Of a DNA stretch of 29,394 bases, positions 6,124 through 11,344 are shown one piece after another. The translations under genes and the position numbers were made by a program. How positions within the stretch are numbered: position 1 is the stretch's first letter; the number at the start of each line of letters is the position of its first letter. The notes beneath the pieces are model-generated. The model was not told where the DNA came from, did not search any database, and worked only from the letters and a program-made list of their open reading frames with translations. Source of the DNA: a virus; IMG/VR virus record IMGVR_UViG_3300028840_005945, positions 1-29,394 of that record, one strand, 5' to 3'.

Positions 6124-6365
6124 AAGACCTGAAGATAATTTGCAGGAACGTGACGCAGGACGAGGCGCTGGTGTACGCGCGCAGGGCGTTGCGGGACAAG
6201 TGGGACGATGTGGTGTACTCCAACATGGTTTCCGTGGAGCGCAAGGAAACGCAGAAATTCGACGTTTACACGGTTACCCGCCCCGATGCGTCAGCGGAAC
6301 AGAAGGAGGCGGTTCCCGAGAACAACGCCCAGTCGGAGGAGGCGGACGGCGAAACCGATGAATGA
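6120..6365 (+). CDS. Hypothetical acidic-tailed protein
   Basis: 81 residues, start in ATGA overlap with the DUF1353 gene. The first about 55 residues look like a small alpha/beta domain. The last 25 are acidic and low-complexity. No family recognised. It overlaps the endolysin start by eight bases, so the two are probably co-translated. Confidence 0.55.
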   Translation: MKDLKIICRNVTQDEALVYARRALRDKWDDVVYSNMVSVERKETQKFDVYTVTRPDASAEQKEAVPENNAQSEEADGETDE

Positions 6366-7209
6366 GTTCCGCACCCTGAAGTTGACCCGCCCTATGATGC
6401 ACGGGGCGGTGGTGCGCCGCCTGCAGGAGTTGGGCGACCTGATTGGTTGCGACACAGGCCCCAACGACGGGATATTCGGCCCCGATACACAGGAGGCGGT
6501 CTACCAGATTCAGGCCAAGCTGGGCATCCTGCAGGACGGCATATGCGGCCCCGTCACCTGGCGGGCGTTGCTGGAGCACATAGACAATTCCTCGGGCGAC
6601 ACGCTGAACAGGTTCTTTGTGGACATACGGGGCGCCCACCCGGCGCCCAAGAACTACGGGCGCAAGCGCAAGCTTGCGGAAATTGAGGGCGTGACACTGC
6701 ATCAGACGGGGTGTGAGATGCCATCGAACCCCAGGGGCTGGGAACGGCTGAACGCTCATATCGGCGTGACGCAGGAGGGCAAGGTGGTGCTGGTGAATGA
6801 CTTCACCGACATGATTTGGCACGCCCAGGGCCTTTCCCAAAACACAATAGGCATTGAGTTCGAGGGCAACTTCCACGGCGTGCGGGGGCGCACGAACACG
6901 CTTTGGAAAGGGGGCGGTGGCCCGCATTACTTTAATTTGGCCATGGGCATGGCGGCCAACACCCTGTTCGATTATCTGACCCGCTGGTTCGCCGAGCGGA
7001 AATTGCGGTGGCAATTCATCAACGCCCACCGCCAGAGCAGTGACACCAGGAGGGGCGACCCGGGAAGCGAGGTGTGGAAGGGAGTGGCGTTGCCTTGGTG
7101 CGACCGCCTTGGGGGCGAGCAGATGGACGGGGGTGAGGGATACCATCTGAAAGAGGGGCGCGGGGTGCCAGGGGTGTGGAACAACGGACTTTACAAGACC
7201 AAATACTGA
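6358..7209 (+). CDS. Endolysin: peptidoglycan-binding plus Amidase_2 domain
   Basis: 283 residues from ATG 6358, with GGAGGAGG further upstream. Residues about 12-75 form a PG_binding_1 domain (VRRLQELG, then NDGIFGPDTQEAVYQIQ, then GPVTW). Residues about 85-250 form a zinc N-acetylmuramoyl-L-alanine amidase of the Amidase_2/PGRP type. Likely zinc ligands are H115 (TLHQTG), H224 (NAHRQ) and D234 (DPGSEVW), with the GIEFEGN strand at about 165-171. By family knowledge it cleaves the lactoyl-Ala bond of murein for host lysis. No signal peptide is visible, so it should need a holin. The adjacent genes are not clear holins. Confidence 0.88.
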   Translation: MNEFRTLKLTRPMMHGAVVRRLQELGDLIGCDTGPNDGIFGPDTQEAVYQIQAKLGILQDGICGPVTWRALLEHIDNSSGDTLNRFFVDIRGAHPAPKNYGRKRKLAEIEGVTLHQTGCEMPSNPRGWERLNAHIGVTQEGKVVLVNDFTDMIWHAQGLSQNTIGIEFEGNFHGVRGRTNTLWKGGGGPHYFNLAMGMAANTLFDYLTRWFAERKLRWQFINAHRQSSDTRRGDPGSEVWKGVALPWCDRLGGEQMDGGEGYHLKEGRGVPGVWNNGLYKTKY

Positions 7210-7256: not shown

Positions 7257-7610
7257 ATGACGAACAAGAACGCTGTTGTTACCTGTGATGACGGGACCGA
7301 GGTTTCGGTCTATTGCGCCCATAAGGACCTTGTGCTGACCGAACTGGTGAAGGGCAACCCGGAAAACCCGAACCAGCACCCGCCGAACCAGATTGACCTG
7401 CTGGCCAAAATCATCCGACATCAGGGGTGGCGCAACCCCATAGTAGTCTCCACCCGCTCGAAGATGGTGGTGAAGGGGCACGGGCGCCTGCAGGCCGCCA
7501 GGGCCTTGGGGTGCGAAAGGGTGCCGGTGGATTACCAGGACTACGACAGCGCCGAGGCCGAGTTCGCCGACTTGCTGGCGACAACAAGCTGGCCGAACTG
7601 TCTCACATAG
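7257..7610 (+). CDS. ParB-like domain protein, 5' part of frameshifted ParB-methyltransferase
   Basis: Starts at ATG 7257 with AAAAGGA upstream. It reads as a ParB/Srx-type nucleotide-binding domain: NQIDLLAKIIRHQGWRNPIVV, then VVKGHGRLQAARALGCERVPV, then FADLLA, as in phage ParB-N domains fused to DNA methyltransferases. At 7578-7580 the frame should continue as DNKLAELS, a hallmark following this domain. That sequence is in the -1 frame from 7580. In the zero frame the protein ends nine codons later at TAG 7608. One missing base (GC for GCC) explains it. No slippery heptamer is present. It could be a real mutation or a sequence error. Confidence 0.75.
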   Translation: MTNKNAVVTCDDGTEVSVYCAHKDLVLTELVKGNPENPNQHPPNQIDLLAKIIRHQGWRNPIVVSTRSKMVVKGHGRLQAARALGCERVPVDYQDYDSAEAEFADLLATTSWPNCLT

Positions 7611-8629
7611 ACCAGGAGCTTGAACTGGCTGGCAGGGAATTTCTGGAGGCGGCCAATTTCGACCTCGAGTTGGCAGGCTTCGAGCTTGGGGATGGCGACG
7701 GCGAGGACGAGGACCCGTACGCCAGCGACCCGAGCATGGCGGGCAACCTACGGGAGCGGTTCATAGTGCCGCCCTTCAGCGTGCTGGACACCCGACAGGG
7801 GTATTGGCAGGAGCGCCGGAAGCATTGGCAGGCGGTAATCAATGACAAGGGCGAGACGCGGGAGCAGACCCTGTTCGCCGAGGACAGCCTGGGGGCCAAG
7901 ATTGGGACGGTGAGCATACTGGACGCCGTGCTGGCGGAGATTGTGGTCGAGTGGTTCGGTTTGCCCCATGGCAAGGCGTTCGACCCGTTCGCCGGTGACA
8001 CCGTGTTCGGCTTTGTGGCGGGCACCAAGGGACAGACCTTCACGGGGATAGAACTGCGTGATGCCCAGGCCAAAATCAATCAGATGCGGTGTTCAGATGC
8101 GGGGTTGCCCTGCACATACCACAACGACGACGGCCAGAACTTGCTCAAGTACATCCCCAACGAGAGCCAGGATTTGCTCTTTAGTTGCCCGCCCTATCTG
8201 GACTTGGAGAAGTACAGCGATGACCCCAGGGACTTGAGCAACATGTCGCACTCGGAGTTTTACACGGTTTACAGCGCCGTGTTCAAGGCCGCCTACACCG
8301 CCCTCAAGCCCGATCGGTTCGCTTGCGTTGTCACCTCCGAGGTGAGGGACAAAGACGGCCTGTACGCCGGTCTGGTGCCCAAAACCATACAAATAATGGA
8401 GGAGGCCGGGTTCAGGTACTACAATGAACTGATTCTTGTCAACTCCGCGGGTACCGTGCCTATAAGAGTGACCAAGAGCATGAACGCCGGTCGCAAGGTG
8501 GGGCGGGTGCATCAGAACGTCCTGGTGTTCTACAAGGGCGACCCCAAGGCCATCGGGCAGACGTTCCCCGAGTTTCTGGACGAGGACGCGGCGTACGCCA
8601 CGGAAGGCGGTGATTACGATGAAGGCTAG
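7580..8629 (+). CDS. DNA methyltransferase (3' part of split ParB-methyltransferase)
   Basis: Reads in the -1 frame relative to the ParB-like part, beginning DNKLAELS. No well-placed ribosome site opens it; an ATG near 7738 lacks a Shine-Dalgarno. Motif I is DPFAGDT, followed by FTGIEL. Motif IV is SCPPYLDLEKY, about 75 residues later. This is the order of amino-methyltransferases with motif I before motif IV. The C-terminal end, AGRKVGRVHQNVLVFYKG, is typical of phage adenine/cytosine-N4 methyltransferases. With the ParB part it would be about 457 residues. It probably modifies phage DNA against restriction; the target base and site are unknown. An AdoMet-related gene follows directly. Confidence 0.75.
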   Translation, partial: DNKLAELSHIDQELELAGREFLEAANFDLELAGFELGDGDGEDEDPYASDPSMAGNLRERFIVPPFSVLDTRQGYWQERRKHWQAVINDKGETREQTLFAEDSLGAKIGTVSILDAVLAEIVVEWFGLPHGKAFDPFAGDTVFGFVAGTKGQTFTGIELRDAQAKINQMRCSDAGLPCTYHNDDGQNLLKYIPNESQDLLFSCPPYLDLEKYSDDPRDLSNMSHSEFYTVYSAVFKAAYTALKPDRFACVVTSEVRDKDGLYAGLVPKTIQIMEEAGFRYYNELILVNSAGTVPIRVTKSMNAGRKVGRVHQNVLVFYKGDPKAIGQTFPEFLDEDAAYATEGGDYDEG

Positions 8630-8903
8630 AATGTACAGATACGGGCAATGGATACCCGATACGGACCCTGCGGCTTTGCGGCGGCGGTTTCTGAACATGT
8701 TGGATGACTGCGGGTTCGAGATACTTGATGAGATGCAACATCACTTCAAGCCCCAGGGCTGGTCATGGGCCGTGTTGCTGGCCGAATCTCACCTGGCCAT
8801 ACACACCTTCCCCGAGGAGGGGCAGACCTGGGTCGAGCTTTCCAGCTGTGTACAGCCCCCCTACAAGCGGTTCCTTGAGTTGTTCGCCGGGGCCGACGAA
8901 TGA
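8619..8903 (+). CDS. SpeD-like (S-adenosylmethionine decarboxylase family) mini-protein
   Basis: 94 residues from ATG 8619, overlapping the methyltransferase by 11 bases; a GTG at 8610 and an ATG at 8631 are alternatives. LLAESHLAIHTFPE (residues 53-66) is the signature of the class 1 SpeD family. E56-S57 is the expected self-cleavage site that makes the pyruvoyl cofactor. H62 and C77 sit at the same spacing as His68 and Cys83 relative to Ser63 in bacterial SpeD. Usual family length is about 120-130, so the C-terminal part of the fold is missing. By family it would decarboxylate AdoMet. Some SpeD homologues have become ornithine or arginine decarboxylases, so the substrate is open. Confidence 0.8.
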   Translation: MKARMYRYGQWIPDTDPAALRRRFLNMLDDCGFEILDEMQHHFKPQGWSWAVLLAESHLAIHTFPEEGQTWVELSSCVQPPYKRFLELFAGADE

Positions 8904-10639: not shown

Positions 10640-10838
10640 GACGCAACTGCTGGCGCTGGTGGCCAAGGCGAACAGGATAAACGTGTGGGTGGGGCACGCC
10701 CGCATCTATCTGCGGGTATCCAAGGCTGAGTTCCTGCGGGGCATGGCCAGACGGGACCGATCGGAGCCTGGGGTGGACCAGTTTTACAACCCGACCAAGG
10801 TGCACTATGACCACGGCGGGAACCTCTGGGTGTCCTGA
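10632..10838 (+). CDS. Hypothetical protein
   Basis: 68 residues from ATG 10632, overlapping the previous gene by eight bases and sharing one base with the next (TGATG). VWVGHARIYLRVSKAEFLRGMARRD suggests a small alpha/beta fold. No Cys and no known motif. Confidence 0.55.
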   Translation: MDRTQLLALVAKANRINVWVGHARIYLRVSKAEFLRGMARRDRSEPGVDQFYNPTKVHYDHGGNLWVS

Positions 10839-11344
10839 TGTGCAGGCGCAGGCGAAAAGAGGGGCTGTGGGCCAGGAGCGAGGACGCCCCGGAATATCAA
10901 CTGCTACCCGCCAGCCGCGGGCCAACGGGGCGGCCCCGCATATGCAACAGCGCGGACATGGTGATACAGATAGGGCGGCATCTGACGGGCGCCGAAAAGC
11001 GCCAGATGAGGATGCAGGAGTTCTTCGGGGCGGTGGCGCTGAACAACAAGAACGAGATTTTGGGCCTGCGGATAGTGGCGGTGGGGGCGGCGAACGGGTG
11101 CATGGTGAATCCCGTGGACGTGTTCAGGTACCTGCTGGAGACGACGGCCTGCAGGTGGGCCGCCTTCCATAACCACCCCAGCGGTGACCCCACGCCCAGC
11201 CCCGATGACGTGGCGCTGACCAGACGCCTGCAGGAAGCGGGAAAGTTAATGGGATTGCAACTGCTGGAGCATGTGATAACCGGCCCCGAAATGTCACCCG
11301 ACAATTACACCAGCCTGCGGGACAGCGGGATACTGGTGGGATGA
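10838..11344 (+). CDS. RadC-like JAB/MPN domain protein
   Basis: 168 residues from ATG 10838. From about residue 35 it follows the RadC C-terminal (MPN+/JAMM) domain: E61 (MQEFF), HNHPSGDPTPSPDD at 111-124 (H111, H113, S121, D124), then LTRRLQEAGKLMGLQLLEHVI. All expected JAMM zinc residues are present. The N-terminal UPF0758/HhH part of full-length RadC is absent, as is common for phage and plasmid copies. The domain is metallopeptidase-like; the molecular role of RadC proteins is unresolved, and copies on mobile elements are often linked to anti-restriction or recombination genes. Confidence 0.82.
   Translation: MCRRRRKEGLWARSEDAPEYQLLPASRGPTGRPRICNSADMVIQIGRHLTGAEKRQMRMQEFFGAVALNNKNEILGLRIVAVGAANGCMVNPVDVFRYLLETTACRWAAFHNHPSGDPTPSPDDVALTRRLQEAGKLMGLQLLEHVITGPEMSPDNYTSLRDSGILVG

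Follow-up and report, generated by a model that had tools for sequence, protein, structure and literature searches.

The window analyzed here, a viral record of 29,394 bases, carries terminase, portal, capsid, tail sheath, tape-measure, and baseplate genes, which confirms the phage origin assumed in a preliminary description of this DNA. Upstream of the terminase genes it encodes a compact homologue of S-adenosylmethionine (AdoMet) decarboxylase, SpeD, preceded by a methyltransferase homologue and a ParB-like domain. The features referred to below are:

7257..7610, plus strand: ParB-like N-terminal domain, in another frame than the methyltransferase; fused to it in most relatives
7427..8629, plus strand: methyltransferase homologue ORF preceding SpeD; N6_N4_Mtase, PHROG 498 'DNA methyltransferase'
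7730..8626, plus strand: methyltransferase catalytic domain as modeled (299 aa, pLDDT 88); nearest solved folds Trm11, TrmN, and Trm14
7913..7924, plus strand: S-I-L-D segment ahead of motif I; Leu codon at 7919-7921, second best discriminator
7988..8011, plus strand: motif I, FAGDTVFG; Asp codon at 7997-7999 covaries with SpeD
8186..8197, plus strand: motif IV, CPPY; unchanged across the family whether or not SpeD is present
8619..8629, plus strand: overlap of the methyltransferase stop with the SpeD start, 11 bases; translational coupling
8619..8903, plus strand: SpeD, compact class 1b-like AdoMet decarboxylase proenzyme, 94 aa; predicted pyruvoyl Ser57, His62, Cys77

The SpeD ORF encodes Glu56-Ser57, with His62 five residues after the serine and Cys77 fifteen residues after the histidine. 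In HMMER alignments to PDB 1tlu, Ser57, His62, and Cys77 correspond to S63, H68, and C83 of the T. maritima enzyme. The resemblance is far beyond chance: the protein matches Pfam AdoMet_dc (PF02675; E 3e-15, 56.8 bits against a cut-off of 25 bits) and PHROG 27309 'S-adenosylmethionine decarboxylase' (E 2e-31, 89 of 96 positions covered). Its score against the NCBIfam equivalog TIGR03330, 52.9 bits, falls under the cut-off of 75.65 bits, as expected of a shortened form. An AlphaFold2 model built from the window SpeD and 53 relatives (pLDDT 95) has the order strand-helix-four strands-helix and ends after the second helix. Its top Foldseek matches were 1tlu, 1vr7, and 2iii (TM 0.62-0.71), the best solved matches being the SpeD proteins of T. 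maritima and A. aeolicus. By residues, profile, and fold, the ORF is a class 1b SpeD. The preliminary description had pointed to a self-cleavage Glu-Ser, a His, and a Cys at class 1 spacing, and this was borne out by the translation, the 1tlu alignment, Pfam, and PHROG. It had also reported the C-terminal third as missing. That part is indeed absent, the Pfam match stopping at position 79 of 107, but there is nothing peculiar in this: the comparison of a structure prediction with class 1 SpeD, which it had proposed, shows a core sheet intact except for the last class 1b strand, and the short C-terminus is a family-wide trait.

Scanning IMG/VR with the window SpeD as a single sequence gave no match; a two-sequence alignment of the window SpeD and that of Croceibacter phage P2559S, used as query, returned 80 loci. 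All 65 distinct SpeD proteins, the window and 64 phage relatives, retain Glu-Ser-His, His, and Cys, with 12-35 residues left after the Cys. SpeDs of the same size in bacterial genomes (Flavobacteria, Clostridia) adjoin spermidine synthase (SpeE). Because the 65 sequences end alike and the window stop codon overlaps the ATG of the following ORF, compactness is a family trait rather than a truncation, and shortening by sequencing error was ruled out by the 64 relatives and the bacterial SpeDs in the same length range. The compact size is ordinary and is not what is new here. Both prolines of the conserved region, P45 and P65, are invariant in the compact family. The P2559S protein (AFM54845; 106 aa), 45% identical to the window SpeD over the whole alignment, is by published evidence a functional AdoMet decarboxylase: it made up for the deletion of speD in E. 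coli, bringing back spermidine when E. coli speE was co-expressed (Li et al., 2023; PMC9992855). That paper makes no mention of the methyltransferase.

The neighboring AdoMet-type methyltransferase noted in the preliminary description is the ORF at 7427-8629, which overlaps the SpeD start and matches N6_N4_Mtase (PF01555; 33.2 bits, cut-off 26.7) and PHROG 498 (E 2e-84). The nearest solved folds among the matches listed are the exocyclic-amine tRNA methyltransferases Trm11, TrmN, and Trm14 (Z 18-20), which are tRNA guanine-N2 methyltransferases. Motif I departs from that of N6/N4 methyltransferases in having Asp where Gly stands. The first ~50 codons of the ORF (ahead of about 7577) share their DNA with the ParB frame and do not keep the family register, the conserved part beginning at about 7580. 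The ParB-like and methyltransferase parts lie in different frames, with a one-base shift near 7577-7580. Since this break, at 7577-7610, falls inside a conserved stretch (ADLLA / DNKLAEL) through which relatives read, the window copy may be defective or may carry a one-base assembly or sequence error.

The two genes are linked almost obligately. In 77 of the 80 SpeD loci from the IMG/VR scan, a methyltransferase homologue lies upstream on the same strand, and in 75 of these 77 it ends at -45 to +5 bases from the SpeD start, overlaps of 20 or 11 bases being the commonest. A second scan was seeded by the methyltransferase alone and hence was not selected for SpeD; SpeD lay directly downstream in 71 of 78 new loci, ~20 of the 71 being a longer form 33-48% identical to the compact ones. 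Two isolated phages carry the pair: P2559S, where a ParB-like/methyltransferase fusion gene stands directly before speD as in the window, and Pseudomonas phage ZRG1, where the methyltransferase is paired with a longer SpeD of 129 aa. Among bacterial compact-SpeD loci, eight that are prophage-like have the enzyme with motif I FAGD and no SpeE, most others have SpeE and no FAGD enzyme, and none has both, a distribution suggesting that the FAGD enzyme takes SpeE's place beside SpeD. A search of 20 SpeD-bearing viral records for SpeE (PF01564) found none, with control genomes positive. An insertion hotspot was rejected as the cause of the linkage because relatives with motif I FAGG share the same site by the terminase genes yet never carry SpeD.

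Some loci depart from this arrangement. AdoMet synthetase was rejected as a regular third member of the module, as it stands beside the linked pair in two loci alone, L062 and L326. In L062 (3705-8668) an FAGD methyltransferase is followed by a ParB-methyltransferase copy without motifs I and IV, then SpeD, then MetK, a full AdoMet synthetase gene; L326 has a MetK homologue too. At L064:4437-6291, overlapping genes encode in turn ParB on its own, a divergent N6/N4 methyltransferase whose motif reads FMGQG and lacks the Asp, and a compact SpeD; here SpeD may have been paired independently with a different methyltransferase. Two related phage records of 250-290 kb have a compact SpeD with neither the methyltransferase partner nor SpeE (L010:6001-6333 and L041:6001-6336).

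The presence of SpeD tracks a single residue of the methyltransferase homologue. Aligning both enzyme sets gave motif I as FAGD[ST]VFG with SpeD and FAGGSVRG without it, SpeD-less relatives having Gly or a deletion at the Asp position. We tabulated 303 methyltransferase domains from five sources, in which overlapping scans repeat some contigs: 204 had Asp and SpeD, 8 had Asp without SpeD, 91 had neither, and none had SpeD without Asp. Dereplication at 99% left 108, 5, 77, and 0, respectively. The association has a Fisher p of 8e-32 in the tree set, with kinship ignored. In a tree of 121 enzymes from which the motif columns were left out, a branch with full support sets the distant FAGGSVRG forms apart, and forms lacking both Asp and SpeD are nested at five separate places within the Asp- and SpeD-bearing clade. 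The nested forms read FAGG-MFG, FSGGA-FG, and similar, with motif I one residue shorter; L110, L121, L124, L251, L256, L300, and L313, which carry this one-residue deletion, fall at about five independent places. Judging from this tree, Asp and SpeD have been lost together about five times independently. Over six independent Asp contrasts, SpeD changed in the same direction in 5.9 on average and never in the opposite one, for a sign test p of about 0.03; by itself this test is modest, the weight of the case coming from how many separate lines there are.

A scan of alignment columns found that Asp alone fully separates the SpeD-linked enzymes from both the distant SpeD-less clade and the nested losses. 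The runner-up, Leu (with SpeD) or Phe (without) in the S-I-L-D segment, reverts in 5 of 7. As the best column is this Asp and the runner-up lies just ahead of motif I, change is concentrated at the expected cofactor site, and the covariation suggests a cofactor other than AdoMet. Behind the nested Asp-less forms we saw no substitute enzyme for SpeD, and terminase-type genes follow directly. For the enzymes with Asp and no adjacent SpeD, we searched elsewhere in their records and found no SpeD; since five such enzymes remain after dereplication in the sequence examined, host SpeD or AdoMet may serve them.

The reaction, rather than a single SpeD gene lineage, is what is conserved across the pairs. 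A SpeD tree, based on few columns and with many open forks, has two deep lineages, compact and full-length, both of which pair with the same methyltransferase-type enzyme. Each lineage contains methyltransferase-linked and SpeE-linked members, requiring 2-4 partner switches on those few columns. The window enzyme belongs to a supported group (98) of the enzyme tree that includes partners of full-length SpeD, which means that one SpeD has been swapped for another while the enzyme stayed the same.

SpeE has a class I methyltransferase-like fold, and motif I reads GGGDGG in all 46 spermidine synthases that we examined. In the human enzyme, as in a model of the Datura one, the Asp of this motif is bonded to decarboxylated SAM through the free amine and presumably repels the carboxyl group of SAM; with a D103I substitution, aminopropyl transfer was lost and weak methyl transfer from SAM appeared, and D101I in the T. 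maritima enzyme lowered kcat by a factor of about 2000 (Junker et al., 2013; PMC3725402). We infer from motif register, not from superposition, that the phage Asp corresponds to the Asp of GGGDGG: in the GxGxG register GGGD stands against FAGD, and the ribose-binding acid follows 20 versus 18 residues later. Against the N4/N6 methylase 2zie, HMMER aligns the phage Asp with the Ser/Thr position of FAGTG. Profile-profile alignment of the methyltransferase homologue with SpeE gave nothing significant and was too weak to test the equivalence; spermidine synthase was not among the matches listed for the catalytic-domain model (VIA-align), which decides nothing on kinship. With no profile match and no significant SpeE alignment, the homologue is not a member of the PF01564 family. 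Though outside it, the partner enzyme may work like spermidine synthase, which it resembles in the position of the Asp by register, in being the partner of SpeD, and in the proposed cofactor use; it differs in carrying ParB and N6/N4-methyltransferase features, the substrate of SpeE being putrescine, and sequence kinship between them is not detectable.

We consider it probable that the pair is a two-gene phage DNA-modification module in which SpeD makes decarboxylated AdoMet and an aminopropyltransferase derived from a methyltransferase uses it on DNA; here the pairing and the covariation are observed, and the cofactor, product, and substrate are our proposal. By analogy with its P2559S relative, for which the activity is published, the window SpeD would cleave itself at Ser57 to form a pyruvoyl group and would decarboxylate AdoMet. 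The ParB-linked methyltransferase homologue next to it would take up this product, and the motif I Asp that the homologue has gained would hold the free amine of decarboxylated AdoMet and repel the carboxylate of AdoMet. With this Asp in what by register is the place where spermidine synthase holds decarboxylated AdoMet, the group transferred would be 3-aminopropyl rather than methyl. The homology to the N6/N4 DNA methylase family, the ParB domain, and the place beside the terminase genes suggest DNA as the target, the acceptor most likely being an exocyclic amine of the phage DNA: adenine N6, cytosine N4, or guanine N2. We speculate, by analogy with the aminated thymines of phages phiW-14 and M6, that such a cationic base might shield the DNA from host nucleases, helping the phage to escape restriction, and might partly neutralize its charge for packaging.

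Several other readings of the locus have to be weighed against an aminopropyl-transferring module. SpeD might be an ordinary auxiliary metabolic gene that, with host putrescine and host SpeE, yields more spermidine for packaging or translation beside an unrelated methyltransferase. The spermidine restored by P2559S SpeD in the presence of E. coli speE (PMC9992855), the wide occurrence of SpeD in cyanophages, and the two jumbo phage records with a compact SpeD and no methyltransferase all fit this reading. We nevertheless judge it unlikely, since it leaves unexplained why SpeD overlaps a single enzyme family almost without exception, why its presence depends on one active-site residue, and why the losses are concerted, and it sits poorly with FAGG relatives that occupy the same terminase-side place without SpeD and with the lack of SpeE in the 20 SpeD-bearing records. 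The last point and the tracking of a single methyltransferase residue likewise count against polyamine supply for packaging as the main role, which the preliminary description had offered as one of three. Another of these, the lowering of AdoMet to blunt restriction or, put more broadly, other AdoMet-dependent defense, draws on the fact that SpeD consumes AdoMet, and phage T3 is known to use an AdoMet-lowering strategy. It seems to us the least credible of the alternatives: the gene is coupled to the phage's own AdoMet-type enzyme, which would be starved if it used AdoMet, the relative at L062 carries its own AdoMet synthetase, and the Asp covariation is left unexplained. Coordination with the phage's own methyltransferase is the strongest of the three, given the linkage in both scans and the Asp covariation. 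The preliminary description thus stands on SpeD identity, compactness, and the methyltransferase link, but not on polyamine supply or AdoMet depletion as the main role.

The remaining alternatives concern the chemistry. Several phage SpeD homologues are pyruvoyl ornithine or arginine decarboxylases (PMC9992855, PMC10407285), an option raised in the preliminary description and very improbable for the compact SpeD (SpeDC/SpeDA type): its 45% identical family member from P2559S has AdoMet decarboxylase activity and brought back spermidine in E. coli lacking speD (PMC9992855), and whereas the arginine decarboxylases (SpeDA) are marked by the loss of a conserved proline (PMC10407285), both prolines of the conserved region are kept throughout the family. 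The ornithine decarboxylases (SpeDC) are told apart by four diagnostic residues. The partner might instead take decarboxylated AdoMet as a methyl donor, for example to sustain modification once AdoMet runs low or the host's AdoMet-dependent enzymes have been shut off. Its methyltransferase descent and unchanged motif IV CPPY would agree with this, and the covariation speaks to a change of cofactor, not to the group moved; we find it doubtful, as spermidine synthase uses the same Asp to point the aminopropyl carbon at the attacking amine (PMC3725402). Slightly less doubtful, though still improbable, is a module that targets RNA (tRNA or rRNA) rather than DNA, as the Trm11, TrmN, and Trm14 folds could imply. 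A shared fold does not fix the substrate, however, and the fused or adjacent ParB-like domain, the N6_N4_Mtase match, and the terminase-side place speak for DNA.

Each part of the proposed module has known relatives. The class 1b SpeD proteins of T. maritima (TM0655) and P2559S share the catalytic Ser, His, and Cys and the fold with the window SpeD, and P2559S has the same type of gene pair; the window SpeD differs in lacking the last strand and in having a methyltransferase homologue, not speE, as its partner. The ParB-linked, SpeD-less PHROG 498 proteins of Enterococcus phage phiFL3A (gp36) and Listeria phage B054 (gp77) resemble the window enzyme in sequence (45% identity), domain order, motif IV, and terminase-side place, but have motif I FAGGSVRG instead of FAGD[ST]VFG and in the set examined never stand by SpeD. 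The cationic bases of phiW-14 and M6 are made by other enzymes, by a route through hydroxymethyl-dU in which, to our knowledge, decarboxylated AdoMet plays no part; we know of decarboxylated AdoMet solely as a polyamine precursor. Like the base proposed here, putrescinylthymine (phiW-14) and aminoethyl-dU (M6) bear amines, and they hinder restriction (PMC5977210, PMC6449724).

Taken as a SpeD, the gene is ordinary; taken as a module, the pair is probably a nucleic-acid modification system of a new type. We lean, with a little less assurance than for the module itself, toward a widespread class of phages that produce decarboxylated AdoMet for themselves and in which a converted DNA methyltransferase puts 3-aminopropyl on bases of the phage DNA, which would make it the first nucleic-acid aminopropyltransferase, with the cofactor switch set by one motif I residue that tracks the gene making the cofactor. 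A search of the open literature, preprints excluded, returned no relevant report of decarboxylated AdoMet together with DNA modification, ParB, or an adjacent phage DNA methyltransferase; as judged from open literature without preprints or most subscription journals, the novelty of aminopropyl DNA modification is not proven. If the proposal is right, it would add a new base modification and a new use of decarboxylated AdoMet, and the family would hold a natural cofactor-switch series within one type of enzyme, Asp with SpeD and Gly without. Some phage speD genes, including one proven to encode an active decarboxylase, would then be re-read from polyamine auxiliary genes to DNA-modification genes, and a cationic base, if real, would matter for the escape from restriction, for packaging, and for sequencing phage DNA.

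A few further observations were made in passing. A compact SpeD at L321:3001-3294 lies on a Woesearchaeota MAG contig with neither SpeE nor methyltransferase nearby. At L079:165-377, near a contig end, a SpeD-like stretch is in frame with apparent ParB sequence, as a fusion or an assembly artifact. In the window itself, a RadC-like JAB-domain protein (10838-11344; Pfam RadC, E 5e-28) lies between the SpeD region and the terminase, and upstream of the module the product of 6361-7209, with Amidase_2 and peptidoglycan-binding domains, is a probable endolysin.
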